Shown: piece after piece, positions 2,765 to 26,943 of the stretch | Layout: every line of letters begins with the position of its first letter | How positions within the stretch are numbered: position 1 is the first letter of the stretch | Assembly: GCA_017999985.1 (NCBI GenBank) | Contig: JAGNKU010000009.1 | Coordinates: 1-64,000 of the forward strand | Source: Phycisphaerae bacterium | Lineage (GTDB): Bacteria > Planctomycetota > Phycisphaerae > UBA1845 > Fen-1342 | Direction: 5' to 3' | DNA length: 64,000 bases | Made by a program: the position numbers and the translations under genes | The notes under the pieces: generated by a model | The model's input: only the letters and a program-made list of their open reading frames with translations | What the model was told of the DNA's origin: nothing | Database searches by the model: none

Positions 2765-2802
2765 CCGACTTGCGAGATGCTTTATTTGCAAGGACTTACG
2801 TA

Positions 2803-2827
2803 AATGGAGCCGATGAGATTCGAACTC
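2803..2827. repeat. Right copy of the 25-bp att-like direct repeat
   Basis: Identical to 103-127 and exactly 2700 bp away. It forms the end of the tRNA-Ala fragment described at 2805-2848. Presumed attachment core (attR or attL) of the mini-element. Confidence 0.7.
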
Positions 2828-2848
2828 ACGACCTCTTGCATGCCATGC
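2805..2848 (-). pseudogene. Truncated tRNA-Ala(GGC) 3' half
   Basis: Read on the minus strand, 44 bases match the 3' half of a tRNA-Ala: anticodon loop ATGGCAT (anticodon GGC), the 3' anticodon strand GCAAG, the T-arm, and an acceptor ending GGCTCCA. The sequence 5' of the loop (2849 upward) does not supply the pairing anticodon strand, D-arm or GGAGCCG acceptor strand. This is therefore a fragment left by recombination, not a working tRNA gene. Confidence 0.65.
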
Positions 2849-2989: not shown

Positions 2990-3634
2990 TCAATCCGCGA
3001 CGTCGAGATCCCGCTCGCGCTGTTCAAGCCGCCACGTGCTAAAGCTGTGTCGCTCGATGCGACGGCCAGGGCCCTTCTTCCCGTTGGTCGTCAACTTCCC
3101 GGCGCCTGCGGCCCACGAGACACGGGCGGTCGCCTTCTTCAGGTCCAGCCCCGAGACGTCATCGAGCAGCAGCAAAGCACACTGCTTGACGGTCAACCAT
3201 TCCGAACCGCCGTCGCCTTCGTCGGGCGCCTGGATGACGCGCCGCACGACGCTCGCCAGCGTGCGTCCTCGGTCGGGGAACGGCTTGGCGATGAACTCGC
3301 GGGCGCCGTTCTCGGTCAGCTCGCGCGTCAGATCGACGCACGCACCGGTCTGCCCCGTCATGATGATCACGGGGGGGCAGCCGCCATTCCGCTGCTGCCG
3401 CATCCAGCGCAGCAGGTTCACGCCGCAATCAGTACTGGCGCCGCCGCGACCGCCCTTGGCCGGGATCTGCAGGTCGAGCAGCACGTAATCGAACGGCGTT
3501 GCCGCGAACCGCTCCTGGGCGTCGGCCTGATTGGTCACCCACTCGTGCTCATGTCCGAGCGAGAACAAGACGTCCTCAACCGAAGGCATGACCCGTTCAT
3601 CATCTTCAACGATGAGCGCGCGATAGGACTTCAT
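2990..3634 (-). CDS. Response regulator with excisionase-like DNA-binding tail
   Basis: The 214-aa protein has an N-terminal receiver domain: acidic pocket Glu10-Asp11-Asp12, phospho-acceptor Asp54 in VLLDL, Thr93 in MTG, and Lys117 in AKPF. A short linker leads to a C-terminal segment (about 145-207) beginning WLTVKQCALLL and ending in a basic stretch with NGKKGPGRR. This resembles MerR/excisionase-type winged helices and should bind DNA. The start overlaps the kinase stop by 4 bp (ATGA), so the two are translationally coupled. It probably receives phosphate from the adjacent kinase and regulates transcription, perhaps of its own operon through the inverted repeat at 6930-6951. Confidence 0.85.
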   Translation of the reverse strand: MKSYRALIVEDDERVMPSVEDVLFSLGHEHEWVTNQADAQERFAATPFDYVLLDLQIPAKGGRGGASTDCGVNLLRWMRQQRNGGCPPVIIMTGQTGACVDLTRELTENGAREFIAKPFPDRGRTLASVVRRVIQAPDEGDGGSEWLTVKQCALLLLDDVSGLDLKKATARVSWAAGAGKLTTNGKKGPGRRIERHSFSTWRLEQRERDLDVAD

Positions 3635-4836
3635 GCTTCTCTCCCCTTGGACGGCGTCGGCAGCCGCACCGTCACGACCGTGCCCCGACCCTCCTGACTG
3701 TCAAAGTGAATGCTGCCGCCTTGCGACACGATCTTGCGGGCCGCGTTCGGCAGGCCGTAGCCCGTGCTGTTCCGCTTGGTCTTGTTGCGCCGGCCGGGCG
3801 TGAACAGATGCAGGGTGTCGGCTTCTTCCTGCGCAAAACCCATACCGTTGTCGCGAATGCAGAGGTCTGCATGATCGCCGACCCGGCGCGCGGTGATCTC
3901 GATCCGGCCGACCTCGTCGGTGATCGCGCCGGCGTCGCCGGCATCCCCTGCCACGGCCTGCGTCCGGCGCGGCCAGCCGCCGGCGAAGGCCTCGAAGGCG
4001 TTCTTGAGGATGTTCGCCAGGGCCGTCACCACTTGGTGACGTGCGACGACGACTGTGATGTGCTCAGGGATGTCGAGGTCGGCCGCGATCGTGCTGGGAT
4101 CGACTTCGCCATTGGCGCGCACACTCGCGACCGCGATCTCCTGGGCGGCGCGCAGCAGGTCCACGAGCCGCTCAGGCCGGCGGCCGGCGTCGAGCGGCTC
4201 GGTGAACTGCTCCATATCGAGCACGGTGCGCTCCAGGAACTCGAGGTCATCGCGCACCCGCGCGGGCAGCCGTGCCCGGCGCGCCCCCGCAGGCGGCGAG
4301 GTCTCGGCCAGCAGCGCCAGCGTGTTGGCCTTCAGGTGTGTGAGCACGCTGCGCAGGTCGTGGACCATCGAAGCCACCAGCAACTGCGTGTAACGCTCGC
4401 ACAGACGGGATGCGTCGCGCGCGGCGGGCGCGCCGTGCCGCTTCTCGATCCGCTGCAGGTGGGCAGCCACCTGGTCGACCCCGAAACGGGTGCGCTGCGC
4501 CGCGCGCACAGCACGCGCGCGCCGGGCGACGGCGCGCTCCACCGCGTTGAGCACGAACGCATTGTGATCGTGCTCGAGTTTCTCGTGGAGCGTCGCGAAG
4601 AGCGGCTCCGGCAGATGCTCGAGCGCCCACGCGACCGCCTGGCGCACCTGCGGCAGCGGATCGTCCGCCAGTACACTCAGCAGCGCCGCCGCTTCCAGCG
4701 TCTGGAAGTACGCCGCGGGGTGCTCCGCGAGACCCCGGGCGAGCGCGAGGCGTTCGTCCCGACTCGCGGCGTTTCGGTCGGCCCGCAGGCGCGCGACCAC
4801 GTCTGCGACGTCGATCTGATCAGGCTGCGTTTCCAT
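3631..4836 (-). CDS. HEAT-like soluble sensor histidine kinase, 401 aa
   Basis: An ATP-dependent autokinase with no membrane segment. Residues 1-110 form paired helices of HEAT/armadillo character (for example LPQVRQAVAWALEHL). The HisKA-like H-box is MVHDLRS with His159. The HATPase_c core shows the N-box ALANILKNAFEAF (272-284), G1 DNGMG (329-333), and a GYGL glycine box (about 359-362). It overlaps the upstream ATPase gene by 17 bp and the downstream regulator by 4 bp. A cytoplasmic kinase with a protein-binding repeat in place of a periplasmic sensor suggests it reads an intracellular signal, possibly the state of its ATPase partner. Confidence 0.85.
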   Translation of the reverse strand: METQPDQIDVADVVARLRADRNAASRDERLALARGLAEHPAAYFQTLEAAALLSVLADDPLPQVRQAVAWALEHLPEPLFATLHEKLEHDHNAFVLNAVERAVARRARAVRAAQRTRFGVDQVAAHLQRIEKRHGAPAARDASRLCERYTQLLVASMVHDLRSVLTHLKANTLALLAETSPPAGARRARLPARVRDDLEFLERTVLDMEQFTEPLDAGRRPERLVDLLRAAQEIAVASVRANGEVDPSTIAADLDIPEHITVVVARHQVVTALANILKNAFEAFAGGWPRRTQAVAGDAGDAGAITDEVGRIEITARRVGDHADLCIRDNGMGFAQEEADTLHLFTPGRRNKTKRNSTGYGLPNAARKIVSQGGSIHFDSQEGRGTVVTVRLPTPSKGREA

Positions 4837-6775
4837 GCATGCACCCGTAGCGCAGTTGACGCTGCGCGAACGCCTCGGCGCCGCCCTCGAGCAGCGTCAG
4901 GATCTCGTGCCGGCAATCGTCGACGCCGCCGGCACGAGCCACGAAGGCGCGCGTGCCGTCGGAGTCGAGCACGAAGACGCGCTCCGCATCCCCGAGCACC
5001 GGAATGTTCGGGTTATGCGTCACAAACACCAGCTGGCGACTGGCCTTGGCCGCGCAGAGGCTCCCGACGACGTGCTCGAAGATGAACCGGTTGTCGAGGT
5101 TGTCCTCCGGCTGGTCGATCAGCAGTGGGTTGGCGCTGTCGAGCAGTAGAATCGGCAGCACCGCGGTGCACTTCTGGCCGGTCGAGAGCGCCAGTGACGG
5201 CTTGTACTCGCCGTTGTCGTTGAGCTCGATCGTCGGCGTGTCCCCAAGATCGACGCACTCGAGCTGGAACAGTGTCTCGCTCCCGCCGAGGGCATCGAGC
5301 ACCTTGCGGGCCTGGTCAGAACTCAGCTCGGCCTCGTCGACCAGCGGCCGCGGATCGCCCGCCCGCACAGCCGCCGCCAGCCGATCGGGCCAGAAGGCCT
5401 GCACGAGCTTGGGGACGACGGTATTGGTCCGCACGTGGGCGCTCCGCAACGCGGCGGCCAGCAGATCCGCGTACTGCTGTACATCGCCGGACTGACGCAC
5501 TCCGACCCGAATGCGACCTGCGAGCTGAGTCGTGATTGTCTCCGCCACGCGCCGCCGGATGGCGAACCGCCGGTCGCGCAGCGTGGCCAGTTGCTGCAAC
5601 AGGGCCTGGCGCTGCTCGCGCAGCGCTGCGAGCTGCGTACCCAGTTCGGCCTGGACGGCCTGCTGCGCGAGCAAGTGGTTGCGCTGCCGTTCGAGCCGGC
5701 TGCGCTCCGTCGCCTGGGCCTGCGCCGTCTCGCGCTGCTCGATCAGTGCCCGGAATGCCAGCTCCTGCTCGTTGTGCCGCACCTGGAAGTGCTGCGCGGC
5801 CTGCGTCAGCTCCGCCTGCGTGTTGGCCAGCGCCTGCCGCGCCGCGGTCAGCGCCACGTCGATCTGAGCCCCGCATTCGAGCGCGATACGTTTGACTGCT
5901 GCGACCGCCTCGGCGTTCGGCCCGCCGCCGACCTCCGCGCTGAATAGCAGAGCGGCGCGGGCCCCGATCTGACCATTCAGGCTGGCCACCTGTCCGTCGA
6001 ACTCGCGCAGATAGCGGCGCAGGCCGTCGACCGCCCGTTGCTCACGGTCACGCAGCGCCTTCTCGGCATGGGCCTGGTTGATGGCGCCGCCGTCGTCGGA
6101 GCCGGGCGCCGCCGCCGCCAAGGCGAGTCCGCGCAGCTGCTCTTCGAGGGCTGGGAGGCCAGACAGTTCCTCGGTCAGGCTCGCGATCTGCGCCTCCAAT
6201 GGGGCGATCTGGCCGGCGTTGGCATGCAGCGCGTGCTGCACGGTGCGGAGCTCGCTGGCGACGGTCGCCAACGCTTCGGCCTCAAAACGATCGAGCAACG
6301 CGAGCTGTGCCGGCGCGTGGTCGGCGATACGTTCGATCTCGTTCTGGCTGTAGAGGTCGGCGGCGAACAGCCGGCCCGACCGGATGGAGACCGCCGTCGG
6401 CTGGCGATCAGCGTCCAGCACGATCGGCTCTTCGCCGACGGCGCGCGTGATGACGTACGTCAGCCCCTCCTTGGTGGTGATGGTCAGCTCGACGCGCCCG
6501 CCGCCGAGGTTCTGGGCCAGCAGCGCTTCGATGCGGCGCCACCCAGCAGGGTCCACGTCCGCAGCCGGCAGCGCGTCCAGCGTGAACCGGATCAGCTCGA
6601 GTATGGTGGTCTTGCCCGAACCACGCGCGCCGATCAGGCAATTGAGGCCGTCGGCGAATTCGAGCGTGGCGCCGTCAAGGAAGCCGCCGATGACCCGCAG
6701 ACTGCGCAGGCGGTGACCCATGTGAGGTTGTGTTGGGGGATGCGACGCGCCGGCCGCGACAACGAACTGTTCCAT
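4820..6775 (-). CDS. SMC/RecF-like AAA ATPase, 651 aa
   Basis: First gene of the three-gene operon. The Walker A motif GARGSGKTT is at about residues 49-57. A long Gln/Ala/Leu/Glu-rich coiled coil occupies about 170-430. The ABC-type signature LSTGQK is near 530, Walker B LLIDQPEDNLD near 551-561, and a switch His in VFVTHNP near 587. This is the RecF/RecN/SMC-like ABC ATPase layout: two half-domains folded back on a coiled coil, usually binding DNA ends or foreign DNA. ATG 6775 is chosen because AGGGAG precedes it by about 7 nt. An upstream in-frame ATG at 6931 would cover the putative operator. No nuclease motif is visible. Its pairing with a two-component system is not a standard housekeeping arrangement. 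Confidence 0.85.
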   Translation of the reverse strand: MEQFVVAAGASHPPTQPHMGHRLRSLRVIGGFLDGATLEFADGLNCLIGARGSGKTTILELIRFTLDALPAADVDPAGWRRIEALLAQNLGGGRVELTITTKEGLTYVITRAVGEEPIVLDADRQPTAVSIRSGRLFAADLYSQNEIERIADHAPAQLALLDRFEAEALATVASELRTVQHALHANAGQIAPLEAQIASLTEELSGLPALEEQLRGLALAAAAPGSDDGGAINQAHAEKALRDREQRAVDGLRRYLREFDGQVASLNGQIGARAALLFSAEVGGGPNAEAVAAVKRIALECGAQIDVALTAARQALANTQAELTQAAQHFQVRHNEQELAFRALIEQRETAQAQATERSRLERQRNHLLAQQAVQAELGTQLAALREQRQALLQQLATLRDRRFAIRRRVAETITTQLAGRIRVGVRQSGDVQQYADLLAAALRSAHVRTNTVVPKLVQAFWPDRLAAAVRAGDPRPLVDEAELSSDQARKVLDALGGSETLFQLECVDLGDTPTIELNDNGEYKPSLALSTGQKCTAVLPILLLDSANPLLIDQPEDNLDNRFIFEHVVGSLCAAKASRQLVFVTHNPNIPVLGDAERVFVLDSDGTRAFVARAGGVDDCRHEILTLLEGGAEAFAQRQLRYGCMHGNAA

Positions 6776-6929
6776 ATCCGTTCTCCCTGATGATGTGCGC
6801 AGGGACTCCCCGCCGCGGTGAGGCCGCGTTCGTTTGCCCAGAATCGACTGCGTACACGCCGAAAAGCGCCCGGCGACCCCATCCTTGGGGAGCAATTCCT
6901 TGGCCGCGCCGGGCAGCCTGTTGGCTGGC

Positions 6930-6951
6930 ATCGGCCACGCCCATGGCCGAT
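6930..6951. promoter_or_regulatory. Perfect 8-bp inverted repeat, candidate operator
   Basis: ATCGGCCA (6930-6937) and TGGCCGAT (6944-6951) form a perfect dyad around 6 bases. It lies immediately downstream of the predicted -10 at 6960-6965, overlapping the expected transcription start, which is a classic repressor position. The response regulator at 2990-3634 is the natural candidate to bind it. Confidence 0.45.
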
Positions 6952-6959
6952 CTTATGTT

Positions 6960-6988
6960 AGGGTAATGTTCGATACGTCATCTGTCAA
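6960..6988 (-). promoter_or_regulatory. Predicted sigma70-type promoter of the ATPase-kinase-regulator operon
   Basis: On the minus strand a consensus -35 TTGACA (6988-6983) is followed after 17 bp by TACCCT (6965-6960). The leader to the ATPase start would be about 180 nt and contains the inverted repeat at 6930-6951. Confidence 0.4.
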
Positions 6989-7126: not shown

Positions 7127-7540
7127 GCGATCTCCAAGCGACGGAAGGCCCGGCGGGTGCCGCTCTGGTGGGATCAGGGCACGCTGGACGATCTGACGGC
7201 ATGGCGAGATCAGCGGATCGGGCAGGGTGCCGCTCCAGCCAATCCGTTCGTCTGCTCGCAGTCACCGCGCTCGGCCGGCAAGCCGCTGGATCGGCAGAAC
7301 GCACGGGCCCGCTTCAAGGTCGCGTGCCGGGTGCTGAGTCCCGAGCGGACGGCGGGGTTGACGATCCATCACGGCCGGCACACGTTCGCTTCGTTTGCGC
7401 TGGCGCGGGGCGTGTCACCGGTGGCCGTCCAGCAGGCGCTTGGGCACTCCAGCCTGAGCGTCACGAATGTCTACGCGTACCTGTTGGACGATGACGGGGC
7501 AGATGGTCACTTGTTTGGCTCTGCGGACGATCGCCCTTGA
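7127..7540 (+). pseudogene. 5'-truncated tyrosine recombinase fragment
   Basis: Only the C-terminal part of a recombinase remains. It begins around ISKRRKARRVPLWWDQ and includes the His-x-x-Arg box HHGRHT, the GHSS box and the Tyr region NVYAYLL. The core-binding domain and the box with the first catalytic Arg are missing, and the in-frame sequence upstream is unlike a recombinase. A GTG at 7157 could start a 127-aa product, but it would lack essential residues. It belongs to a different recombinase type from the gene at 1229-2683, so it records a separate past insertion next to the ATPase operon. Confidence 0.7.
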
Positions 7541-10546: not shown

Positions 10547-11119
10547 CTATCGGCTCTTGCCCCTTCGTCGAGCACTCTGCAACGAATCGGGCGTATCCCA
10601 ATCACCGTCCAGCTCCGAAACCGTGCGCCTTGGTTCTCTCTTCTTCCAGTTTCGTAATCGAGACCTCATACGCGCCGCATCTCTGAAACGCCCCAGTTGA
10701 CCATACACTTGGGCTGCCAATTCAAAGCCCTGCGTCCGCAGCTCGACAGGCAGCGCACGGACAAACATGTCAACAAACTGCTCGCACCGCCCTATATCGT
10801 GGCGCTCGTAGTACTCGATCTTCGCGAGCTCAAATGCAGCTTCGGCGTTCCGGTGGTCAATTCGGAGTGCCGCCGAATAACATCGCGCCGATGAAGCCGT
10901 TGACACATAGAGGTCGCCGAGCGCTAGCCACAGCTTGACCGACCTGGGATATTCACGCACCAGTCTACGCCCAATCCGTAGCGCAGTTGCGTGGATACGA
11001 GAAGCTAGTTTGACGTTCCCCTTGACACTCTGTCTCAAGTACCGGATGCGGTACTGGTCAAGGCGTTGCTCCGCTTGCCGTTGCTCCGCTTTGGCATGAT
11101 TTCGTGTTGCATTCGACAT
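10547..11119 (-). CDS. TPR-like protein downstream of the Rhs gene, 190 aa
   Basis: The N-terminal part is basic and helical. It is followed by TPR-type helix pairs (LWLALGDLYVSTASSARCYSAALRID, AAFELAKIEYYERHD, GFELAAQVYGQLGRFRDAARM). The chosen start ATG 11119 overlaps the end of the Rhs gene by 62 bp in another frame, so the two are probably cotranscribed. Genes placed directly after an Rhs C-terminal domain often encode immunity proteins. That is only a positional argument here; TPR proteins also act as general scaffolds. The IS right end lies 6 bp beyond the stop codon, so the gene is intact. Confidence 0.6.
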   Translation of the reverse strand: MSNATRNHAKAEQRQAEQRLDQYRIRYLRQSVKGNVKLASRIHATALRIGRRLVREYPRSVKLWLALGDLYVSTASSARCYSAALRIDHRNAEAAFELAKIEYYERHDIGRCEQFVDMFVRALPVELRTQGFELAAQVYGQLGRFRDAARMRSRLRNWKKREPRRTVSELDGDWDTPDSLQSARRRGKSR

Positions 11120-14100
11120 ACCTTGCCGCGGCCTCTTCGAGCTGCCCAGGGAAATTACCAACGACGTTCTCATTGAATCCTGTCACATAGAGCCGGCCGT
11201 ACATGGATGCAATCTTACGCCTGAACGTCACACGGCATCTATCATCACTAAACGGCTTTCCACAACATGTGAATCCTATCTGACTCTCGACCCGAATGGC
11301 GTACTGCCAACCAGATTGCTCTGCAAGCTGGATGCCCCCATTGTATGCGATCAAATCTGCCGCATATGCGTCATTTAGGATATTAGTCAAGCCGAGATCG
11401 ACCTCAAGAAACAGGATTTCTGTTAGCGCCATACAACATAGGCCCTCGACCGAGATTGCGGACTTGCGCCCCATGGTCCGGCCCTTGTGTGCATATCGCT
11501 TGAGCACCTTGACGTAGCCTTCGATTGACTTTGCTTTCTTGATCTTCCCCTCGGCTCGTGCAGCCTTTGCGAGCGACTCCAATTCTTCTACAGTCTCCCG
11601 TCCTGTCACGAATGACGGTGTAATGTTACACTTGCCACCCTTGCTGAGTCCAAGGGGGTCATAGTGGCCCATCGGCTCATCATCAATGTAAGAGAATAGA
11701 TTGCCCTCATCTCCGTATTCCGTGACCGACAGGTGCGGATTCTGCGTTCGCTGCAGCGCGCGCGTCACTGCGAATCCCAACTCAGCAACTGGATCCCTGC
11801 TGATCCACCGCCCCAGCGCCGGGTTGTAGTAGCGGTAGCCCCAGTATCCCAGCCCGGTTTCGTCGTCCCAGTACTTGGTGCTGAAGCGGAACGGGTTCGC
11901 CGCGGCGTAGTCGCCGGTGGCCGCCGTGATGTTGCCGTAGGGATCGTATTCGTACTTCGCGATCAGCGCGCCGGCTACGTCAATAGCCGGATGCTTCCAG
12001 TTCACGAGCTGCGTGACGTTGCCGTTGCCATCGTAGCATACGGCCAACGACAGGTCGTCATTGCCTGCAGAGCCCGGCAAATAGTGCGCCGCCAGCAAGC
12101 CACCGATCGTACCGGCTCCTTCAAGGCTGTTGACCTGCCCGGCTTGACCAGCGAGGTCCAGGCCCCATGTGTACGTCCACTCACGGACGTCCTGCTCGCC
12201 AATGACCCGCAGCTCGGCCAGCATCCGCCAGCTGTCCCAGATGAACTTCCGCGTGTCGGTCACGACCCAATTCCCGCTCTGGTAGGCCTCGACCTGCTTC
12301 CAAAGTCGCCGACCCAAATAATCATAGCGGAACGAGAGCCGTTGGGCACCCTCGGCGATGGTCGTGCCCGGCGTCGGCTCCACGCACGTCAGGCGGTTCT
12401 CGCCGTCCCAGGTGTACGTTTGGGTTACACCAACGTTCCCGGCGCTCATCAGTGCCACGAACGGGTTGATGTCCGCCATGCTGGTTACGCCATCCCCGTT
12501 GATGTCGCCGTTGAGGATATTGCAGCCCGGATACGTAGCGTACCAAGCCGTGGGGTTGCTGAGGGCCAACACGAAGGCGTTGTTGTCACTGAATCCCACC
12601 ACTCCGTCGCAGTTCATGTCGGCGGCCAACCACCTGCGCAACAGGTTGCCGTCGTCATCGTACTCGTACGTGTAGAACTGCTGGGGCGTGGAGCGCACCC
12701 GAGTCTGCGTGTACTGATTCAGTTCGTTGGTCACGTAACTGCCGTTCGGATCGTTGGGATCGTCCCACGTCCGGGACCACGTGCGGTTGCCGATCGGGTC
12801 GTAGAGGTATCCCCAGGTCGTGCCACTACGGACGGAGGTGGTCAACTCGTTGCGGTTGTTGTAGTCGAAGGACTGCGCAATCGGCGTCGCCGGGGACCCG
12901 AACGCCACGCCGCTGTAGCTGACACCGCGCCGCAGGGCAACGTCGCCGTTCACGTAGTCGTACTTCGAGATGTCATTCGGGTCGTTGTCCGGGTACCAGA
13001 TGTTCTGGACGTAGTCCACGAGGTCACGCTGCGTTTCGTGCGGATAGAGGCGCGCCACGCGCTTCTCAGCGTGGTAGATGTCGGGGTTATTCGGATCGGT
13101 GACTATTGCCGCCTGGATATCGATGCGCTCCACGATATCCGTGCCGGCGCGGTATCGATAGACCGCGCCGTGTAGCTGGCTGGTCGAACCCGCCGTCGGC
13201 AACCCCGGCCCCGTCACGCGGGACAGACGCCCGAGCGGGTCGTAGGTGTAACCCGCTGAATAAATCGAGGTTGCATCCTGCGTGACGGACACACCCGCGT
13301 ACCGTCCCAGCACAGCGCCACTGGACTGGTACTGCTGCGTGATCGTAAGCGGGTCAAGATAGAGCGTGCCGTCGATGGTTTCCGACGCGAATTGCAGGGC
13401 CGAGTTGTAATCAAACGTGTGGGTTCCCGCGGCATCGACAATCGTGGCCGGGGTGCCGGAACGATTGTAGGTGAACTGCACGCTCGGCGTGCCGTCATCG
13501 TACGTGATCTGCTTCAACTCGCCGGTCTTCGGCTCGCCGTTTTCGCCGTAATACATGTAGCTTGATGTCGTCAAGCGCGCCCATGTGCGCGTTTTCACCC
13601 GGCCGTCAACGGTATAGGAGTAAGCTACTTGCTGTTGAGCATCGTCACGCTTCTGCAGGAGCAAGCCTGTGGGCTGGTCAATCACCCACGTCGTCACATC
13701 ACCGCCCGTCGGCGACGGCCACGAGCTGTTCTCGAACCCGGTCCCGCTGCGGAAGGTTGTGAGCGTCTCCAGGCGACCGAACGCATCATAGCTGTACGCG
13801 GCAGGCTGTGGAACATCACCCCAGACGTGCAGCACCGGCTGGCCCGGCGTGGTCGGATCATACTCGTAGTAGGTGTGAACGTACGTCGCGTCATTCGGAT
13901 CATCGGTCGGCGTCGCGATCGTGCTCACCTTCCCGGCACCCGCCACGCCATTCCCGTAGTACTCGTAGGTCGTATGGCTGCCGAGCGCATCCTCGGTCCA
14001 GTCAATCTGGCCCACGCTGTCATAGTGCGTCCGAATAAGCGTATTCTCGTAGGGAGCGACGCCGGGGCGGATCACTTTGGCCTCCCGAGTGCTCGGATCG

Positions 14101-17100
14101 TACGTGTACGTTTGCTGCACACCAGTCTTGGACTGCTGCTCCATCAACAGCCCGTTGATCGTGATCCGTAGTTCGTCAGTTGTGCTATCCGGATGGTCAA
14201 TCGTCTCGGTGACCGTTCGCGTGGCAGGAGTCACGGTCGTAAGCCGGTGCGTTGCGTTGCCATGCACGTCGTACGACAGCACGTCCCGGATCGTGTCCGC
14301 GGGGAAGCTGGTCAAACGCTCCTGCGTTGTGCCCGTTGTTACCAAACCCGCCTCGGTCGCAATCTGGGTCGTCGTGATGCGGTGCAAGCCACTCGTGTTT
14401 GAGTAGGTCACGGTGGTTTCGGTGTACCGGTCGTTCGAACCGGTCAGCACAAGTGCGTCGTTCTCGTCGAGGTCGAGGCCCGAGCGCACCAAGTTGCCGA
14501 GCGCATTGTATTCGTGAAGCTCTGGTGCACGCACCTTCGCTCCATTGGGATCCTCGGTCCAGGTCTTCTTGAGCTGCCCGGCGCCAAAGACATTGACCGG
14601 GTAGTACGCGTACGCGGTCGTCAACTCCCCAGACGGCCACGCCGGCCGGGTCTCGGCGACCGTCCGGCCCAGCCAGTCCACTGTCGTCCGGGTGACGCGC
14701 TGACCACCCGTCGGCCCCTCTGTGACCTGTGTCCACGGCGTGGCATCGTTCGGATCGACGCCGTAATCGTACGCCTTCGTCACGACGCCGGTACCGGTCA
14801 CGCTGGCGATCTGCCCGTCGCGGTAGTACTCGGTGATCTCGGTGCTGCCATCCGGTCGTGTAACCGTCACCTGTCGATGTCCGTTCGCGAGGATGGTTTC
14901 CGCGTGGCTCGTGACGAGTGCGGGTTGCCAGTTGATGCTGTCCAGTACTGTCGCTTCCCACACAAGCCGACCCGCCAAGTCATAACGCTTCTCGCTCGCC
15001 ACGCCGGACACAGTGCCCGTGTGCGTCGTTCGAACGCTGGGACCAACACCGGCAACGAAGCCGTACGTATATCCCGTTACCTGGTCGTATTCTGGCCCAC
15101 CGGATGCGTTGTCCAGGCCGTCCCGAGTCACGGACGTTGGCCGCCCCAGGACGTCGTGGAGATAGGTCGTCTCGATCCCCTCGGCATCCGTAACTCTCCG
15201 ATCGTAACAGCAGTTGATGTACTCGGTTTGCGTCTGAGTGATTACCTGGCTTTCGTTTGCCGGATCGACCCGGTACTCGAACGTCCGACGGCCCTGCGTG
15301 TCGTAATCCCACTTCAGCCATTCGATGACCTGATACCCACTGGCGGTATAGGCCTCGCGTTTGAACCAGTCCGGCCGCCGCGACGCGTCACGATGCGTAG
15401 TCTGTCTTGTCGTAGCATCCACAACCGGACCGGTCTCCCCTTCATACCGTACCTCGACCTCGCTCCCGTTGTCCGAGTGGTACTCCTTGTGCCGGTCAGC
15501 CTGCTGAACGAGGACGATCTTCTCCTCAGCACTCCCATCGTAGATCGTCGTCGTAAAGAGCCATTGACCGGAAGTGGCGTATCGGTACTCAGTCACGGAC
15601 AAGATGTTGCCGCTGCACAAGTCGCCCGGAATCGACTGTGTGTAGGCGTTGGTATAAAGCGACTGTCCGACTTGCACTCCGTCAACGAAGCGTTTGACCG
15701 ACTTGATGCGGTACCGCGCGTCATAAATGCGCTGCGTCCCCTGATAACCCGCGGCGAGCAGGCTCGGCTGCGTAGACGGCCGCTCCGTGTCCTTGAATCC
15801 GCTGATTTCCTCCACCGTCCACTCGATGGTGCACACATCATTCGGATCGGTCTGTTCGTAATCGTAGACGTACCACACCCAGGAACCATCCGGATTCTCC
15901 TGCCATTGCAGGCAACCCGGACACACGGGCTCCGACTCGTCGTAATACGCGCGCGTCGTCACCAAGTTGGCCCCAGTCGGATCGACGATCTGCTCGACCC
16001 ACGGCCCATCCTGCGTCTCGTGCCGCGTGACGATGTGCGAGACCTCGTGCCACGCGCCGGCCAAGTACTGCTGCGCCACCCGCGTGCACTCGTACAGGCC
16101 GTTTTGGGTCCAGGCCACGCTCTCCGACTGCAGCGCAGTGGTGCCGTCACCTGTCTGCAGGCTCCAGTCACGCGTGCCATCGGTAGCTGTATATATGTAA
16201 GAGGCGAGAACGTCCTGACCCTCGTATTTCGCGACCGTCACCCATGTGGTTCCACCGTTCTGGTACTCGCGAATACTCCACGTTACAAACGGGGCCGCAT
16301 TGTTAATCGGCTCGTACTCCTGATTTGCCGTACTCCATCGCATGTCGCTGCGCGCATAGAACCATACGTAACACACGTCATCGGGAGTCTCGTCATCTAT
16401 AACCACCGCGACGGAGCGCGGTGTGGCAACTTGATATAGCGCGCCTTCCTGGTCATCGCCTTCCGGCCGCAAGACGACGCGGATTTGGTTCTTGACGTTT
16501 GGATCCGTTGCGCGCCGTTCCTCGACAAAATACTCCAGGGCCTGCGCGCTCGACAAGCCCGCGCTGGGCTCGTCCGCCCGCAGCCAGATTGCACCGCTGG
16601 AGCGTTCCTCGTCACATGGCCCCAGATTGAACCGCACTGCCATGCTGTCTACGTTCGCACCAACCGTGCCGGCACCGCAATTGCCCCCGCTACAACCGAC
16701 CGTCAGTCGAGCTGAGTCGGGCGGACAATTACCGACATACACCCGTATTTCCACCTCGCCCGAGTAGCCCCCTTGGGCCGTGACGCGCCGATGGCAGGGA
16801 CTCTCGCCGTACTGATCAAACTGATCGAACTGCACGTAAATCGGATCAAGTCGTTGCGTGCCAGCCGCATTCCACGCCTCCCAGATGAGATCCCATTTCT
16901 GACGGCAGTTGCAGCCCGCATCTGCATCGTTGGAGTCGCTCGCCGGATAATAGCGCGCATACGTGCTCTCGCCGGGACAGATCTTGTCATCGTCGAGTCG
17001 TACCTTGCCCTCCGGACACACTACATATACGGTTAGCGTGATCGTGACATCGTCGTCGTCGCCGCCGGCATACCATGCATAATCGCTCGCCATGTAGATC

Positions 17101-17771
17101 ACATCGAACGAGGCGTCGGCCTGGACAGCCTTGTAGCGGTGGTTGCAGTCAAATGGCTCCCCAGGTCCAACCGGAATGGGAACCCCCGCCGTACCGGAAT
17201 TGCTCCAACCCGGAAGTACCTTGTCCCACAAATACCCTACGCAACAGCAACCGGGGCAACTTGGCGTGTCGGGATATGTGGCATAACATACACTGCCCCC
17301 CGGAAGGTCACAGGGAGATTGGCCATACTCGTCGTATCCACTATCGTAGTCTTTACTGTATGCGTACACGTGGATGCGCGTGCCGACGCAGACAGTGATC
17401 TCCGCGTGGGACGAATCAGTCCAGTGAAGCGGGATTGCAGATGCCGATTCGATGTCAACTCCCTCGTCACCGAGGCTCGTGACGTCGCAGACTCCGAAGT
17501 TGACATTAATCGCAGGCGCCGCGCTCTGTGCTGGGCAGGGCCAATCGTAATCTGGATATTGCCCCTCCAGCATGCACCGCCACTGAAAGTGCTCTGGCTG
17601 CTCGCACTCGGTATACTCGGTCGCTGCAACTGGCTCCACGCCAATCACACAAAGTGCACCCACTGCGGCAATAACGCTCAGCAGACGCCGCGTGTGTCGA
17701 GTAATGCCGCCGCACGCCCAGCCATGACGCCATGTGTGACTTCGCACGTCTACCTCCATTGTGGAAAACAT
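11058..17771 (-). CDS. Giant Rhs/YD-repeat surface protein with dockerin-like insert
   Basis: A 2237-aa exported protein. GTG/ATG choice is resolved by GGAGG 8 nt before ATG 17771. A Sec signal lies around residues 28-50 (LLSVIAAVGALCVIGVEPVAA). A Cys-rich N-terminal region of about 500 aa is followed by many YD repeats (for example YDALGR/YDPLGR types) and the Rhs core (LGRWISRDPVAE, then NLFSYIDDEPMGHYDPLGLS ending near 2043). At about 1714-1777 two EF-hand-like loops (DMNCDGVVGFSD and DINGDGVTSMAD) form a dockerin-like insert, unusual inside an Rhs barrel. The last 194 residues after DPLGLS are a distinct C-terminal domain with Cys pairs (CC at 2112-2113 and 2169-2170). I do not recognise a toxin fold in it. 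Confidence 0.85.
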   Translation of the reverse strand: MFSTMEVDVRSHTWRHGWACGGITRHTRRLLSVIAAVGALCVIGVEPVAATEYTECEQPEHFQWRCMLEGQYPDYDWPCPAQSAAPAINVNFGVCDVTSLGDEGVDIESASAIPLHWTDSSHAEITVCVGTRIHVYAYSKDYDSGYDEYGQSPCDLPGGSVCYATYPDTPSCPGCCCVGYLWDKVLPGWSNSGTAGVPIPVGPGEPFDCNHRYKAVQADASFDVIYMASDYAWYAGGDDDDVTITLTVYVVCPEGKVRLDDDKICPGESTYARYYPASDSNDADAGCNCRQKWDLIWEAWNAAGTQRLDPIYVQFDQFDQYGESPCHRRVTAQGGYSGEVEIRVYVGNCPPDSARLTVGCSGGNCGAGTVGANVDSMAVRFNLGPCDEERSSGAIWLRADEPSAGLSSAQALEYFVEERRATDPNVKNQIRVVLRPEGDDQEGALYQVATPRSVAVVIDDETPDDVCYVWFYARSDMRWSTANQEYEPINNAAPFVTWSIREYQNGGTTWVTVAKYEGQDVLASYIYTATDGTRDWSLQTGDGTTALQSESVAWTQNGLYECTRVAQQYLAGAWHEVSHIVTRHETQDGPWVEQIVDPTGANLVTTRAYYDESEPVCPGCLQWQENPDGSWVWYVYDYEQTDPNDVCTIEWTVEEISGFKDTERPSTQPSLLAAGYQGTQRIYDARYRIKSVKRFVDGVQVGQSLYTNAYTQSIPGDLCSGNILSVTEYRYATSGQWLFTTTIYDGSAEEKIVLVQQADRHKEYHSDNGSEVEVRYEGETGPVVDATTRQTTHRDASRRPDWFKREAYTASGYQVIEWLKWDYDTQGRRTFEYRVDPANESQVITQTQTEYINCCYDRRVTDAEGIETTYLHDVLGRPTSVTRDGLDNASGGPEYDQVTGYTYGFVAGVGPSVRTTHTGTVSGVASEKRYDLAGRLVWEATVLDSINWQPALVTSHAETILANGHRQVTVTRPDGSTEITEYYRDGQIASVTGTGVVTKAYDYGVDPNDATPWTQVTEGPTGGQRVTRTTVDWLGRTVAETRPAWPSGELTTAYAYYPVNVFGAGQLKKTWTEDPNGAKVRAPELHEYNALGNLVRSGLDLDENDALVLTGSNDRYTETTVTYSNTSGLHRITTTQIATEAGLVTTGTTQERLTSFPADTIRDVLSYDVHGNATHRLTTVTPATRTVTETIDHPDSTTDELRITINGLLMEQQSKTGVQQTYTYDPSTREAKVIRPGVAPYENTLIRTHYDSVGQIDWTEDALGSHTTYEYYGNGVAGAGKVSTIATPTDDPNDATYVHTYYEYDPTTPGQPVLHVWGDVPQPAAYSYDAFGRLETLTTFRSGTGFENSSWPSPTGGDVTTWVIDQPTGLLLQKRDDAQQQVAYSYTVDGRVKTRTWARLTTSSYMYYGENGEPKTGELKQITYDDGTPSVQFTYNRSGTPATIVDAAGTHTFDYNSALQFASETIDGTLYLDPLTITQQYQSSGAVLGRYAGVSVTQDATSIYSAGYTYDPLGRLSRVTGPGLPTAGSTSQLHGAVYRYRAGTDIVERIDIQAAIVTDPNNPDIYHAEKRVARLYPHETQRDLVDYVQNIWYPDNDPNDISKYDYVNGDVALRRGVSYSGVAFGSPATPIAQSFDYNNRNELTTSVRSGTTWGYLYDPIGNRTWSRTWDDPNDPNGSYVTNELNQYTQTRVRSTPQQFYTYEYDDDGNLLRRWLAADMNCDGVVGFSDNNAFVLALSNPTAWYATYPGCNILNGDINGDGVTSMADINPFVALMSAGNVGVTQTYTWDGENRLTCVEPTPGTTIAEGAQRLSFRYDYLGRRLWKQVEAYQSGNWVVTDTRKFIWDSWRMLAELRVIGEQDVREWTYTWGLDLAGQAGQVNSLEGAGTIGGLLAAHYLPGSAGNDDLSLAVCYDGNGNVTQLVNWKHPAIDVAGALIAKYEYDPYGNITAATGDYAAANPFRFSTKYWDDETGLGYWGYRYYNPALGRWISRDPVAELGFAVTRALQRTQNPHLSVTEYGDEGNLFSYIDDEPMGHYDPLGLSKGGKCNITPSFVTGRETVEELESLAKAARAEGKIKKAKSIEGYVKVLKRYAHKGRTMGRKSAISVEGLCCMALTEILFLEVDLGLTNILNDAYAADLIAYNGGIQLAEQSGWQYAIRVESQIGFTCCGKPFSDDRCRVTFRRKIASMYGRLYVTGFNENVVGNFPGQLEEAAARYVECNTKSCQSGATASGATP

Positions 17772-20073: not shown

Positions 20074-23000
20074 TCAAGCCGCCGTTCCCAAGAGGCCGCC
20101 GGCGGCGCTCCGCTGCCAGACAAACTCGTAAACACGGGCGGCGGCAAGCTGCTTGTCGTCGTCGGAGAAGGGAGGCGTCGGCAGGAGGCGCCAAAGCTCG
20201 TCCAGAATATGCGTCTCGACGACAGCTCGCGTCTGCTCGTTCTGCGCCCATAGCTCCATCGGCTTCAACAACGCCTGCAAGGAACCCAGTAGGCCGCGAC
20301 TCGCCTGTTTCAGCTTCTCCCTGTCCGACTTGCTGATGGCATCCCTGTTCAGAAGGTCAAACAAGGCGAGCTCGTCTTCCGAAAGCCCCTCCTCAACGGC
20401 GCGGCGCTGCTCAGCGTCCAGGCTGTCGGCGAGTTCGACAAGCCGAGCGAACGTCTCTTCTGCCGTGGCGCGGTCCTTTTCGCGGTTATAATCGGCGATG
20501 ATCTCCTGATACCGTCTGTAGTAGTCCATCCGCTGGGGATTCTGCTGGAGCATCTGCTGGAGCTTCTGCTCCACAAGTTGGCGGATGTCTTGGAGTGCGG
20601 CCTGCTTCCGTTTCACCTTCTTGGCGAACTCGTCACGGAGCTTGCTGAAGTCGATCTTGCTGAGGTCAACGGTGATGCCTTCGGCGTGGTCGGCCCCGAC
20701 CCCTTGAGCGCGGATGGCTTCGTTGACGATCTTGTGGAGTTCTTTGAGAAGATCGGTCACGTCCGAGGTGTCGCGGCGTTCCTCCAGCTTCTTGTAGATC
20801 GCCTCGATGTTGTCGTGCCGCTCGGCGAATGCGAAGGCCGCGGGCTCCATCAGCAAGGCTTTGAACCGTGCGAAGACTTGGCGGGCCATGATCTCGAATC
20901 GTCGCTTGGCTTCGTCGGACGCATAGACGGCGTTGACGGCATCCCGCAGGGCCTCGATACGGTCGAATCCCCTGGCACCGACGACGCGAGTCGGATCGAA
21001 GCCCAGCGAACCAAGATGATCCTCGGTGGCTTCGATTGCTTCGAGGAGGGCCGCAACCAGTTCTTCGATGGGCTTGACGACCTCGCCGTCGCCATCCCCG
21101 CCTTCCTCTTCCTCGCCCAGCGCGTACTGAGCCATCGCTTCGCGGAGGCTCTTGAGCATTCCGTTGTAGTCAACGATGACGCCGCAGTCCTTGCCGGGAT
21201 AGACGCGGTTGGCCCGCGCGATGGCCTGCATGAGGGTGTGGGCCTTCATGGGCTTGTCGATGTAGAGGGTCGATAGGCACTCCACGTCGAAACCCGTCAG
21301 CCACATTGCGCACACGATCGCAACACGGAACGGGTGGTTCGGGTCCTTGAAAGCCAGATCGACAGCAATCTTCTTGCCGTCTGCCAACTCGAATCCGCGC
21401 TTCATCAAGTCGCGGTGCGGTCGGATATCGAAGCCCCACTTGGCGAAGTCCTTCACCTCGTTCTGGCCTTCGCTGACGATGATCTGGATGAGCGTGCTGG
21501 CCATCCAATCGGCTTGCCCCTGGAGCCTGGCCAGTTCCTTCGCGAGTGCCTCGCGGCGGTCGGGGTCCGCTTCGGCAACGAGTTCGCTCTGTCGTGCCGC
21601 GGCCGCCATACGGACAGCGTCGAGCTTGGCTTGCCAGAGGGGAATGACCCGCTGGTACATCCGGCCACAGGTCGCCTTGTCGATGCAAACGAGCATCGAC
21701 TTGCCCGTTTCCCAACGAGTCGAGCAGTGCTCCACGAAGTCGGCCGCGATTTTGTCGAGGCGGTCGTCCGCCGTGATGACCTCGTAGTCCTTGCCGAGCA
21801 GCTTCTCCAAAAGTGCTGCCTGATCCGGGTCGAGGTCGGCTTCCTCCACCTTCTCGGCGATTCGGTCGTTGAGGTCTAGGCGGGTCAAGCCGAGCTTCTC
21901 GCCGCGGTTCTCGTAGACGAGCTTCACCGTTGCGCCGTCTTCTTCGGACCGCTTGAAGTCGTAGCGCGACACGTAGCTGCCGAAGATTCGGCGAGTGAGG
22001 TGGTCGTGCTTGAAGAGCGGCGTCCCAGTGAACCCGATGAAGGCGGCGTTGGGCAGGGCCAGACGCATGTTCCGCGCGAGCTTCCCGGCCTGCGTCCGAT
22101 GCGCCTCGTCCGAAATCACGATGATGTCGTCCCGGCGGCTGTACGGGCTGTCGGGCGAGACATCCTGGTTGAACTTGTGGATCAGACTGAAGACGTAGCG
22201 GTGGTTCTCCTGCAACAGCCGCCGGAGTTCCACGCCGGTCCCAGCGCGAGGGGTCTTCTCATCCGCCACGCTGCACCCGACGAAGGTCTTGTATATCTGG
22301 TCGTCGAGGTCTTCTCGGTCGGTCATGATGACGAACGTGAAGTCGCCGGGCACACGGCGACGCACCTTCTCGGCGAAGAACGCCATCGAGTAAGACTTGC
22401 CGGCCCCTTGCGTATGCCAGAAGACGCCGAGTCGGCCAAGGTCCGGGTGCGCCCGCTCGACAAGCGGCAGCGCCGGCCCGTCGCGATCCGCCACGGCCGG
22501 CAAGCGATAGCGGAGCCGCTCGGCCGGCGGGAATTCGTGCTTCAGCCGCTCTTGGTGGGCGACGGACGCGACGGCGTTGTTCACCCCGAGCACCTGGTGG
22601 TTCCGGGCGACGATCTTGCGCGTGCCGCCGGCCTTACTGCTGTCGAAGAGGATGAAGTTCTCCACCAGATCGAGCAGCCGGTCCTTCGCCAGCATCCCGT
22701 CGAGTAGAACGCGGGCCTCAAGGTGCCCCTTGTCCTTCTCGTCCTGCCGCTTCCACTCGCTGAAATGGTCCCAGCCGGCCGTGATCGAGCCGTAGCGGGC
22801 GCGGTCGCCGTTGCTCACCACGAGAAAGGCGTTGTGGTAGAAGGCGTGCGGGATGGTGTCGCGGTAGTCGCTGAGGTTGCCGTCGTAGCCGGCCCGGATG
22901 TTCCGGTACACCGCCTTCAGTTCGATGAACACCAGCGGAAGGCCGTTGACGAAGCAGACAAGATCGGCACGGCGGTTGTAGTGCGGAACACACAGGCCCT

Positions 23001-23427
23001 GAATCTTCAACTCGCGGACCGCTAGGAATCGGTTGTTCGCCGGGTTGCGGAAGTCGATAACCTTGGCTCGTGCGTGTTGGACCTCGCCTCTCTCGTCTCG
23101 GAAGGCCACCGGCACGCCGTCACGGACGTACCCGTAAAACTCCCTGTTGTGCAAGAGCGCCGAGCGCGAGAAGTCGTACCGTGTCAGCGTCTCGACAGCT
23201 TCAGCGACGGCCGTTTCCCGCAGGGCCGGGTTCAATCGCGCGATTGCGTTGCGGAGGTCACGGACCAGGACGACTTCGCGCTCACTGGCCCGCCCCAGCG
23301 TCCCCTTCGGCCCGAAGGTCTCTTCGTTCCAGGCATAGACGCTCTCCCAGCCAAGCCTGTCGCGCAGGTAGTCCACGAAGGTTTTCTGCACGAGCCTGTC
23401 TTCACTGTTGATGTCGGTATGGGCCAT
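20074..23427 (-). CDS. hsdR: Type I restriction enzyme R subunit
   Basis: The 1117-aa endonuclease/translocase subunit cleaves unmethylated DNA after ATP-driven translocation by the HsdRMS complex. A PD-(D/E)xK nuclease core is visible as Asp155 (ADLVCF) and Glu169-Leu-Lys171 (FIELKA). The SF2 helicase motor shows Walker A HTQGAGKS (about 338-345), DEAH at 440-443 and the motif III TGTP at 467-470. A helical C-terminal region follows that probably docks on HsdM. Length is usual for the family. It is the last gene of the operon and starts 6 bp after the 28-aa reading frame. Confidence 0.95.
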   Translation of the reverse strand: MAHTDINSEDRLVQKTFVDYLRDRLGWESVYAWNEETFGPKGTLGRASEREVVLVRDLRNAIARLNPALRETAVAEAVETLTRYDFSRSALLHNREFYGYVRDGVPVAFRDERGEVQHARAKVIDFRNPANNRFLAVRELKIQGLCVPHYNRRADLVCFVNGLPLVFIELKAVYRNIRAGYDGNLSDYRDTIPHAFYHNAFLVVSNGDRARYGSITAGWDHFSEWKRQDEKDKGHLEARVLLDGMLAKDRLLDLVENFILFDSSKAGGTRKIVARNHQVLGVNNAVASVAHQERLKHEFPPAERLRYRLPAVADRDGPALPLVERAHPDLGRLGVFWHTQGAGKSYSMAFFAEKVRRRVPGDFTFVIMTDREDLDDQIYKTFVGCSVADEKTPRAGTGVELRRLLQENHRYVFSLIHKFNQDVSPDSPYSRRDDIIVISDEAHRTQAGKLARNMRLALPNAAFIGFTGTPLFKHDHLTRRIFGSYVSRYDFKRSEEDGATVKLVYENRGEKLGLTRLDLNDRIAEKVEEADLDPDQAALLEKLLGKDYEVITADDRLDKIAADFVEHCSTRWETGKSMLVCIDKATCGRMYQRVIPLWQAKLDAVRMAAAARQSELVAEADPDRREALAKELARLQGQADWMASTLIQIIVSEGQNEVKDFAKWGFDIRPHRDLMKRGFELADGKKIAVDLAFKDPNHPFRVAIVCAMWLTGFDVECLSTLYIDKPMKAHTLMQAIARANRVYPGKDCGVIVDYNGMLKSLREAMAQYALGEEEEGGDGDGEVVKPIEELVAALLEAIEATEDHLGSLGFDPTRVVGARGFDRIEALRDAVNAVYASDEAKRRFEIMARQVFARFKALLMEPAAFAFAERHDNIEAIYKKLEERRDTSDVTDLLKELHKIVNEAIRAQGVGADHAEGITVDLSKIDFSKLRDEFAKKVKRKQAALQDIRQLVEQKLQQMLQQNPQRMDYYRRYQEIIADYNREKDRATAEETFARLVELADSLDAEQRRAVEEGLSEDELALFDLLNRDAISKSDREKLKQASRGLLGSLQALLKPMELWAQNEQTRAVVETHILDELWRLLPTPPFSDDDKQLAAARVYEFVWQRSAAGGLLGTAA

Positions 23428-23433
23428 GGTGTT

Positions 23434-23520
23434 TCACTCCGACACCTTCTCCAATACCTGCCGGACGAGGTGCATCAACCCCTCGTACACCCGGATGAAT
23501 TGTCTGACTTGGGTCTTCAT
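23434..23520 (-). CDS. Possible 28-aa protein between PIN-like gene and hsdR
   Basis: A 29-codon frame from ATG 23520 to TGA 23434 starts MKTQVRQFIRVYEGLMHLV and is predicted to be one amphipathic helix. It fills most of the only gap in the operon and ends 6 nt before the hsdR ATG. It may be a genuine small protein or a leader peptide coupling hsdR translation. The ribosome site is weak (AGAG), and chance cannot be excluded at this size. Confidence 0.35.
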   Translation of the reverse strand: MKTQVRQFIRVYEGLMHLVRQVLEKVSE

Positions 23521-23557
23521 TGATTGAATCTCTGGCGACCAAAGGACTGCCCCACGC

Positions 23558-25843: not shown

Positions 25844-26943
25844 AGCAGAACATCTCCATTCATCAGCCGCGGCAGCAGCAGGTCGCGGGCCTGTTGGAGC
25901 TTCTGAGTGGCCAGGAAGAGGACTCGTAGCTGTTCGTCAATTGGCCGAGAGAAGTCCTCGAACTCACGAATCAGGGAGTCGGGCGGCAAGGGCAGCTTCT
26001 GGTCCTCAAGCTCCTTCTTGGTCACCGATGCGAAGATGGCGCCTGCGCCGATCAAGTCTTCTTTGAAGAAGTGCGTCTTGAGCGCGTAGTAGAGAAACTC
26101 CTGATTGCCGGCGCGGCTGCGGAGAGCGGCAAGGCCGCGCCCGACGACGATCTTGTCCAAGCTCACGTTGAGCCGACCGACAGGGGCGCGCACACTGCAA
26201 AGGATGTCACCGGCTTCGGCGACTCGGTTCAGTGCCGTGGTGTAAATGCGGTGGCTGACGAATCTCTCGCCAAAATCCGCAACGCCCTGATGGAAGGGAA
26301 GGCCGTCGCCGTTGTCGTTGTAGAACTCCGACGATGGGCTCTGTCCCATCACAATCTCGGCAAGCTCAACCAGCCGCCGCTTCTCCCAGCCGACGGGCAC
26401 GCCGGCGGTGACGCGGGTGTGTTCGTGGCCGGGGAAGCGGAGGCGGACGAACCATTCCTCGTAGAGCATCCGCGCCGCCTGCTCCAGCAGCGCCATCCGC
26501 CGCGCGTTCTGTGCGATCAGAGTGTCGTAGGCGGAAAGGACGTGGGCGATCTGCTCCTGCACTGGCGCACCGGGATACTGAACCGGAAGCTCATGCAGTA
26601 CATTCCGGTTGACTCCTGGTACAGCAGCTTTGTCGCTCTGGTAGCTCCGAAGGACGTTTTCAAGAAAGTAGGCGACGAAGCGCGGGTGGTTGCCCTTGAA
26701 GTCAATGACGTACAGTGCGGTGTTCAGCGGCCAGTAGTCCTCTTCAATGTAGTAGACGGCGCCGAGCGTGCCGTATCGCCCTGTTACTACCCCTGGCGCT
26801 CTTGCTTTGGGCTCGCTGTGGTACCCGGTAATTCCGGACGAGGAGACGACAGGTACGTTGCCATGCTGCCGGCGTGAATCGGGCAAATCATGACCACGCT
26901 GCAAGGTTAGAACGTCGCCAAGGCGGCCCGAACACCACTTCAT
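25840..26943 (-). CDS. hsdS: Type I restriction specificity subunit S
   Basis: This 367-aa subunit gives the HsdMS methylase and HsdRMS nuclease their bipartite recognition site. Two target-recognition domains are visible: TRD1 about 1-150 (starting WCSGRLGDVLTLQRGHDLP) and TRD2 about 190-345 (starting GWEKRRLVELAEIVMGQSPSS). Each is followed by a conserved helix that acts as the spacer (PVQEQIAHVLSAYDTLIAQN; IREFEDFSRPIDEQLRVL). ATG 26943 is used because it overlaps the hsdM stop as ATGA; the longer in-frame extension upstream is an alternate frame of hsdM. Length is slightly short but complete. Confidence 0.93.
   Translation of the reverse strand: MKWCSGRLGDVLTLQRGHDLPDSRRQHGNVPVVSSSGITGYHSEPKARAPGVVTGRYGTLGAVYYIEEDYWPLNTALYVIDFKGNHPRFVAYFLENVLRSYQSDKAAVPGVNRNVLHELPVQYPGAPVQEQIAHVLSAYDTLIAQNARRMALLEQAARMLYEEWFVRLRFPGHEHTRVTAGVPVGWEKRRLVELAEIVMGQSPSSEFYNDNGDGLPFHQGVADFGERFVSHRIYTTALNRVAEAGDILCSVRAPVGRLNVSLDKIVVGRGLAALRSRAGNQEFLYYALKTHFFKEDLIGAGAIFASVTKKELEDQKLPLPPDSLIREFEDFSRPIDEQLRVLFLATQKLQQARDLLLPRLMNGDVLL

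Follow-up and report, generated by a model that had tools for sequence, protein, structure and literature searches.

Three overlapping genes of a Phycisphaerae bacterium (Planctomycetota) raise the question of what a RecF/SMC-like ATPase does when it is encoded together with a histidine kinase and a response regulator. They lie in positions 1–64,000 of contig JAGNKU010000009.1 (GCA_017999985.1); “the window” refers to this whole stretch of 64,000 nucleotides. An earlier note on this DNA had proposed that the ATPase is the sensor, the kinase the relay and the regulator the output of a possible antiphage defence.

Anatomy of the trio

The three genes, referred to as the trio, are on the minus strand. 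The first (4820–6775, 651 aa; NCBIfam, AlphaFold2) encodes an SMC/Rad50-like ABC ATPase, a putative sensor devoid of a PHP domain. The second (3631–4836, 401 aa; Pfam) encodes a soluble histidine kinase with N-terminal HEAT-like repeats, an H-box (H159) and an HATPase domain, and the third (2990–3634, 214 aa; Pfam) a response regulator composed of a receiver (D54) and an HTH-like C-terminus of about 70 residues. The genes of the ATPase and the kinase overlap by 17 bp (4820–4836), those of the kinase and the regulator by 4 bp (3631–3634). For the ATPase the start is most likely ATG 6775 (651 aa) rather than the longest-ORF start at 6931, because an AGGGAG, read by eye, lies about 9 nt upstream of it. 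The ATPase and the full-length regulator are each present in one copy in the genome.

The motifs of the ATPase are intact: Walker A GARGSGKT (K55), ABC signature LSTGQK and Walker B LLIDQPEDNLD. The kinase keeps H159, N279 and the G-boxes, and the receiver keeps D11, D54 and K117. Pfam recognizes the ABC-type AAA_21/AAA_23 halves in the ATPase, HATPase_c (PF02518, E 5.5e-16) and weak HEAT repeats (PF13646 HEAT_2, E 9.5e-5) in the kinase, and the receiver domain (PF00072, E 4.6e-12) in the regulator. The pair thus has the marks of a canonical two-component system, i.e. H-box, N and G boxes, and the aspartate and lysine of the receiver. Phosphotransfer chemistry is supported at the level of sequence, kinase and regulator having every residue needed for it. 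The earlier note had described three overlapping minus-strand genes with intact motifs, and all its coordinates and residues are there. Its HEAT-like kinase stands in so far as PF13646 is matched, but the match is weak and under the curated cut-off.

The upstream region keeps less of what had been read into it, a consensus promoter and an operator-like dyad. A weak promoter-like pair, TTGACA-17-TACCCT, is read directly at 6960–6988 on the minus strand (TTGACA at 6988–6983). The TTGACA and the 17-nt spacing are as claimed, but TACCCT is a poor −10 and the scan for consensus promoters found none, this pair falling below its threshold. The dyad exists: it is a perfect 8-bp dyad with a 6-nt spacer (ATCGGCCA-N6-TGGCCGAT, 6930–6951) and a possible operator. 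But it is unique, no second copy being found in the genome at 0–1 mismatch, which is not above the control level, and it also scores as terminator-like on the plus strand. Being unique, it gives no evidence of a regulon, and none can be proposed from it.

The element that carries the trio

An att-like repeat of 47 bp, corresponding to the 3' part of tRNA-Ala, lies at 2802–2848 (minus strand), 141 bp from the stop of the regulator. It matches exactly positions 69308–69354 of the same contig, where the second copy lies, in the same orientation, within an intact tRNA-Ala(GGC) (about 69310–69384) adjoined by a 481-aa tyrosine integrase (67836–69281). The repeats enclose a phage-like element of 66.5 kb (2.8–69.4 kb of the contig), with the trio inside the repeat at the far end of the element.

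The phage genes are all on the minus strand: tail tape measure protein (37117–39105, phrog_8462, E 1.6e-44), head decoration protein (44578–44946, phrog_122, E 3.7e-23), portal protein (47503–49023, phrog_21, E 4.3e-60), terminase large subunit (51030–53333, phrog_38, E 1.1e-39) and primase/helicase (59370–61211, phrog_906, E 5.4e-39). Probable type I restriction-modification (R-M) genes occupy 20074–29057 on the same strand (PHROGs 3830 and 2713, DNA helicase and DNA methyltransferase profiles) and include an HsdS-like gene assigned by eye (25840–27150). Between them and an IS1182-like transposase a secreted RHS/YD-repeat-like protein of 2237 aa is encoded (11058–17771). Upstream of the operon, on the plus strand, lies the C-terminal remnant of a tyrosine recombinase (7157–7540, PF00589, E 1.3e-10, profile positions 100–167). 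The transposase, the RHS-like protein and the integrase remnant separate the trio from the phage genes, so that the element may be composite.

Positions 128–2802 form a second att-bounded segment. It holds a full-length tyrosine integrase (1229–2689) and a 306-aa gene without family match (255–1175); this integrase and a partial 25-bp tRNA-Ala repeat at 103–127 suggest a second, adjoining insertion. Contig C23 ends in the same tRNA-Ala repeat, so C23 and the present contig may adjoin in the genome, with a break at this repeat. The truncated tRNA of the earlier note is therefore the 47-bp 3' end of tRNA-Ala; only one of its neighbouring integrase remnants is a remnant, the other being the full-length integrase; and its insertion hotspot proves stronger than claimed, the trio being carried at the end of a phage-like element of 66.5 kb.

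The location of the trio at the att end of such an element is in favor of a reading other than defence, which is the main rival but one that we consider unlikely. The trio would control the life cycle of its own mobile element: the ATPase would sense DNA damage or the replication state, and the regulator would switch excision, transfer or lysis genes, like an SOS-linked prophage or ICE switch. The carriers and the outputs of other trios bear on this reading and are examined below.

The ATPase is related to TrlF and Ppl but lacks PHP

Residues 24–644 of the ATPase match the core of TrlF (NF045780, NCBIfam) with E 3.7e-89 and are equivalent to profile positions 291–944; with 300.7 bits the curated cut-off of 350 bits is not reached. 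Spaf_1101 (4.8e-44) and Ppl (2.4e-30) are further matches in NCBIfam. The AlphaFold2 model (pLDDT 83) displays an ABC head and a long antiparallel coiled coil. Structure comparison brings up Rad50/SMC heads at Z of about 18, and Foldseek returns Mre11-Rad50, Wadjet JetABC (JetC) and Lamassu LmuB, the identity to solved structures being 12–19%. Judged from its sequence, the protein is the ATPase half of the TrlF/Ppl family without the PHP domain, which makes more precise the RecF/SMC-like identity first claimed for it.

The presence of kinase and regulator depends on the N-terminus of the ATPase. For loci with enough downstream sequence, they adjoin 110 of the 118 ATPases without an N-terminal extension versus 1 of the 28 with one (Fisher p 3e-21), and this single exception (L204) is by eye a spurious ORF extension without PHP motifs. 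The PHP motif (D-x-H-x-H and TDH) is found in 26/33 fused ATPases versus 0/135 standalone ones. The sequences thus show one ATPase family that is coupled either in cis to PHP or in trans to a phosphorelay. We infer that the PHP-fused and the phosphorelay-coupled versions share one purpose.

Conservation and distribution of the trio

Relatives were first sought in 294 genomes belonging to the phylum and were found in 22; the standalone ones (630–680 aa) had a kinase and a receiver downstream. Scanning GTDB species genomes gave 80 loci, from Planctomycetota, Verrucomicrobiota/Lentisphaerae, Magnetococcales and other Pseudomonadota, Myxococcota, Gemmatimonadetes and Neomarinimicrobiota. Once further loci were added and duplicates removed, the set comprised 117 distinct loci, in 97 of which the order ATPase-kinase-receiver is complete. 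Many of the incomplete loci are cut by contig ends or have PHP-fused ATPases. The kinase is present in L135, L138 and L211, and two of these loci, L135 and L138, also have an annotated regulator that the profile missed. True orphan ATPases, i.e. without neighbouring kinase or regulator, are found at four Nannocystis/Polyangia loci (L126, L127, L129 and L131). At L200 (8567–12650) a decayed trio has a stop inside the ATPase, has lost the kinase and most of the regulator by deletion, and is followed by a gene that by eye is DUF262-like.

The median overlap is 4 bp (gap −4) at both gene joints. Mirror-tree correlations are 0.88 for ATPase and kinase and 0.82 and 0.80 for the other pairs, with a null maximum of 0.21. 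All 76 aligned trios share H159, N279, D11, D54 and the Walker B residues D554 and E557, and K55 is kept in the 72/72 that cover this position; with such invariance the motif set is not due to chance. The trio is a conserved, co-inherited three-gene module. It could be argued that each of these domains is common by itself, and that an unrelated RecF-like gene came by chance to stand before a two-component pair. This ordinary cluster is refuted by the order and overlaps kept in 97 of the 117 loci and by the co-evolving trees, and we give it practically no credit.

Within the class the trio is present in 28/397 genomes and 25/275 genera (own family: 3 genomes only), and some genomes of the class have two or three copies. 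Three trios are also found in one genome (G678) with trios of the Magnetococcales type.

Carriers and neighbours of the trio

Prophages and plasmids of at least six bacterial phyla carry the trio. It is held by 30 distinct predicted viral contigs (IMG/VR) and by plasmids of Klebsiella (conjugative IncFII), Shinella, Phaeobacter, Leclercia, Rhodococcus, Vibrio, Pantoea and Caballeronia. The co-occurrence across mobile elements on which the proposal of the earlier note depends is thus seen (97 of 117 loci, 30 viral contigs, several plasmids), and the homologues are not simply unlinked housekeeping genes. Regulators with a receiver and a TCAD9 domain match 48 plasmid records; in the one Piscirickettsia plasmid record examined, the annotation shows no ATPase gene upstream of the kinase. 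A phage collection yielded no ATPase matches other than PHP-type or partial ones, and 5,426 complete E. coli genomes searched at the DNA level gave no match, near or distant.

Among the plasmid-borne trios, two VapBC pairs flank that of Leclercia, AbiE adjoins that of Vibrio (L139), and in Caballeronia the plasmid-type trio (L142, 9793–13340) adjoins a DUF1837 gene, a DEAD/DEAH helicase and Ku. We take the DUF1837 gene and the helicase to be a Hachiman-like pair. PADLOC models of 147 families were matched by 132 proteins in a random draw of trio neighbours, including WYL, AbiE, type II and III methyltransferases and LmuB, versus 35 families by 120 proteins, nearly all of one type I R-M locus, in control regions of related genomes; this comparison is rough, with 20 control regions and with redundant models that inflate the family counts. 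Trios are thus placed within mobile elements and among defence genes. Across loci no universal fourth gene was found, the best candidates being serine recombinases (14/97 loci) and WYL regulators (about 15/97). Trios of the Magnetococcales type (L104, L214, L215, L217–L219) often lie next to a sigma-54 activator gene, with a WYL regulator divergently oriented upstream.

Mobile-element carriage and adjoining recombinases also fit element regulation, and count to that extent against a defence module. Trios reside on predicted viral contigs, and in three of the 14 loci with a serine recombinase this gene lies 3–7 bp from the regulator. Against control of the element's life cycle, no recurrent element-specific target appears: recombinase types and neighbours vary, many loci have none within 7 kb, and the same module is found on phages, conjugative plasmids and chromosomes.

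The trio could alternatively be a host two-component system for DNA damage or replication stress that has spread horizontally, with no special antiviral role. The Rad50/SMC-type fold of the ATPase and the persistence of partnerless ATPases at the four Nannocystis/Polyangia loci are compatible with it. A host function of this kind, however, fits badly with a distribution that is very patchy within a family, with several copies in some genomes, with carriage by plasmids and viral contigs, and with neighbours enriched for defence models, and we regard it as improbable.

Outputs of the regulators

The third gene always encodes a receiver, followed by C-terminal parts that across loci fall into several unrelated groups, most of them winged helices or other short domains. 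In the largest one (44 loci, from planctomycetes and verrucomicrobia) the receiver is followed by what by eye looks like a winged helix of OmpR type, then by a DeoR-type HTH (Pfam, E 1.2e-4). Two further groups, one of 19 loci chiefly from proteobacteria and myxobacteria and a small one, have no Pfam match. In the plasmid group the regulators end in a TCAD9/APH-like kinase domain (PF19974, E 6e-16 to 7e-13) in which the motifs HxDLHxxN and IDY/F are largely conserved; the histidine kinases of this type are shorter (about 300 aa), with an intact H-box and an N-terminus of, by eye, one or two HEAT-like repeats. One locus (L088, 14071–14418) has an extra stand-alone receiver of 115 aa directly after the regulator, reminiscent of the buffer receiver in Detocs. 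Matches to SduA, PDC-M60 and RtcR were rejected: they reflect shared receiver or sigma-54 domains and give no evidence of those systems.

For the window regulator the receiver is modelled confidently and the C-terminus with low confidence (pLDDT <50 from residue 176). Foldseek returned receivers alone and no fold for the C-terminus, which by sequence is weakly similar to the regulator of L202 alone (E 1.5e-3). This end is HTH-like and, by eye, reminiscent of excisionases, as would suit a switch of the element's own genes; the kinase domain that is the output of the plasmid branch, not DNA-binding, does not suit it. The earlier note had seen no effector enzyme. This is true at the window locus, but in relatives an APH/TCAD9-type kinase replaces the DNA-binding output, so a direct effector is present in part of the family.

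Proposed function

On balance we favor reading the trio as a mobile signalling module, probably directed against viruses, that leads from a DNA-sensing ATPase through a phosphorelay to an interchangeable output. A dimer of the ATPase would recognize a DNA state that marks invasion or damage (ends, replication intermediates or free duplex), as its fold and homology suggest, since its Rad50, Wadjet and Lamassu relatives do so. The ATPase would then contact the soluble kinase and pass on its bound state through the N-terminal HEAT repeats, the presumed input because the kinase lacks both a membrane segment and any further input domain. The kinase would autophosphorylate at H159 and phosphorylate D54 of the regulator, whose attached output would act. 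In most relatives, and probably in the window copy, a DNA-binding output would change transcription, possibly of its own operon or of protective or altruistic genes of the element, e.g. the nearby R-M genes; in the plasmid branch the APH-like kinase would act directly. In TrlF and Ppl the same ATPase is wired in cis to a PHP hydrolase and not to a phosphorelay. The sensor, relay and output of the earlier note fit the anatomy of the trio and are in this sense partly supported.

In favor of a defence module are the patchy distribution, the mobile carriers, the defence-gene neighbours, the wiring swap and the exchangeable outputs, the last being a usual mark of conflict systems; the kinship of the ATPase to the anti-phage protein Ppl points the same way, and an antiviral function is what we infer. 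Against it, the window regulator ends in an HTH-like output that is modelled with low confidence, and no gene under its control was found. A broader proposal, which we hold tentatively and at slightly less than even chances, is that of an immune-system family in which one SMC-like DNA-sensing ATPase would be linked either to a PHP hydrolase fused in cis (TrlF/Ppl) or, in trans, through a kinase and receiver to interchangeable outputs (transcription factors, APH-like kinases), phages and plasmids having spread it across phyla.

SMC-type DNA sensing and two-component signalling are each known in bacterial immunity, and we found no description joining both. If the proposal is true, a DNA-sensing ATPase feeding a phosphorelay would give a graded, amplifiable and transcription-coupled response, in place of direct cleavage or the death of the cell. 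The swap between PHP and kinase-regulator on the same ATPase makes what the TrlF/Ppl-family ATPase senses directly testable, with the phosphorelay as an easy reporter read-out. As the module resides on enterobacterial conjugative plasmids and has no match in the complete E. coli genomes, ordinary laboratory strains are probably suitable for testing it.

Comparison with known systems

TrlF (NF045780) and Ppl (NF042955, PADLOC PDLC02208; E 2.4e-30 and 3.9e-25) have the SMC-like ATPase core in common with the trio. The trio ATPase lacks the N-terminal PHP domain, whereas TrlF-type proteins lack a kinase and regulator partner and Ppl consists of one protein only, whose N-terminus is of PHP type. 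Membership was rejected in both cases, for TrlF because of the sub-threshold score and the missing PHP domain, and for Ppl because the ATPase reaches 105 bits against a cut-off of 1000 and the trio is not a single protein. Lamassu (LmuB) and Wadjet (JetC) likewise share an SMC-like ATPase head and coiled coil, but the trio is devoid of LmuA/LmuC or JetA/B/D partners and its output passes through a phosphorelay. Membership in Lamassu was also rejected, as LmuB models match the P-loop region only and the operon contains neither LmuA nor LmuC.

Detocs is a two-component anti-phage system composed of a TPR kinase (DtcA), a receiver acting as phosphate sink (DtcB) and an ATP-cleaving effector with receiver and PNP domains (DtcC). 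Both systems have a cytosolic repeat-domain histidine kinase and a phosphorelay to a receiver-linked output. The trio differs by its HEAT instead of TPR repeats, by the added SMC-like ATPase, by the lack of a buffering receiver and of a PNP-type effector, and by the DNA-binding (HTH-like) output in the window. No TPR match was found in the window kinase, no second receiver in the window operon (the extra receiver occurring only in L088), and no PNP match in the window regulator or in ten representative regulators. With the TPR kinase, the stand-alone receiver and the PNP effector all absent, membership in Detocs was rejected.

A precedent for a transcriptional output of the trio is PpoS/PpoR of Marinomonas mediterranea, in which a histidine kinase and its response regulator control CRISPR-Cas transcription and thereby increase resistance to phages (PMC8523701); it differs in being a BarA/UvrY-type global regulator that is no mobile module and has no ATPase partner. 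TCAD9 (PF19974, Ternary complex associated domain 9) is the C-terminal output of the plasmid-type regulators. It is absent from the text of the 2020 paper on ternary conflict systems, where no histidine kinase appears among the vWA-associated effectors (PMC7159879). A 2026 paper predicts, without validation, systems with a histidine-kinase-like ATPase and receiver domains, which may overlap with the trio (PMC13092281). No model of PADLOC or NCBIfam captures the kinase or the trio, and no description of the trio was found in the literature on TrlF, TCAD9, Detocs and histidine-kinase defence, subscription papers and preprints lying outside this search. The trio most likely represents an unrecognised defence or signalling system.
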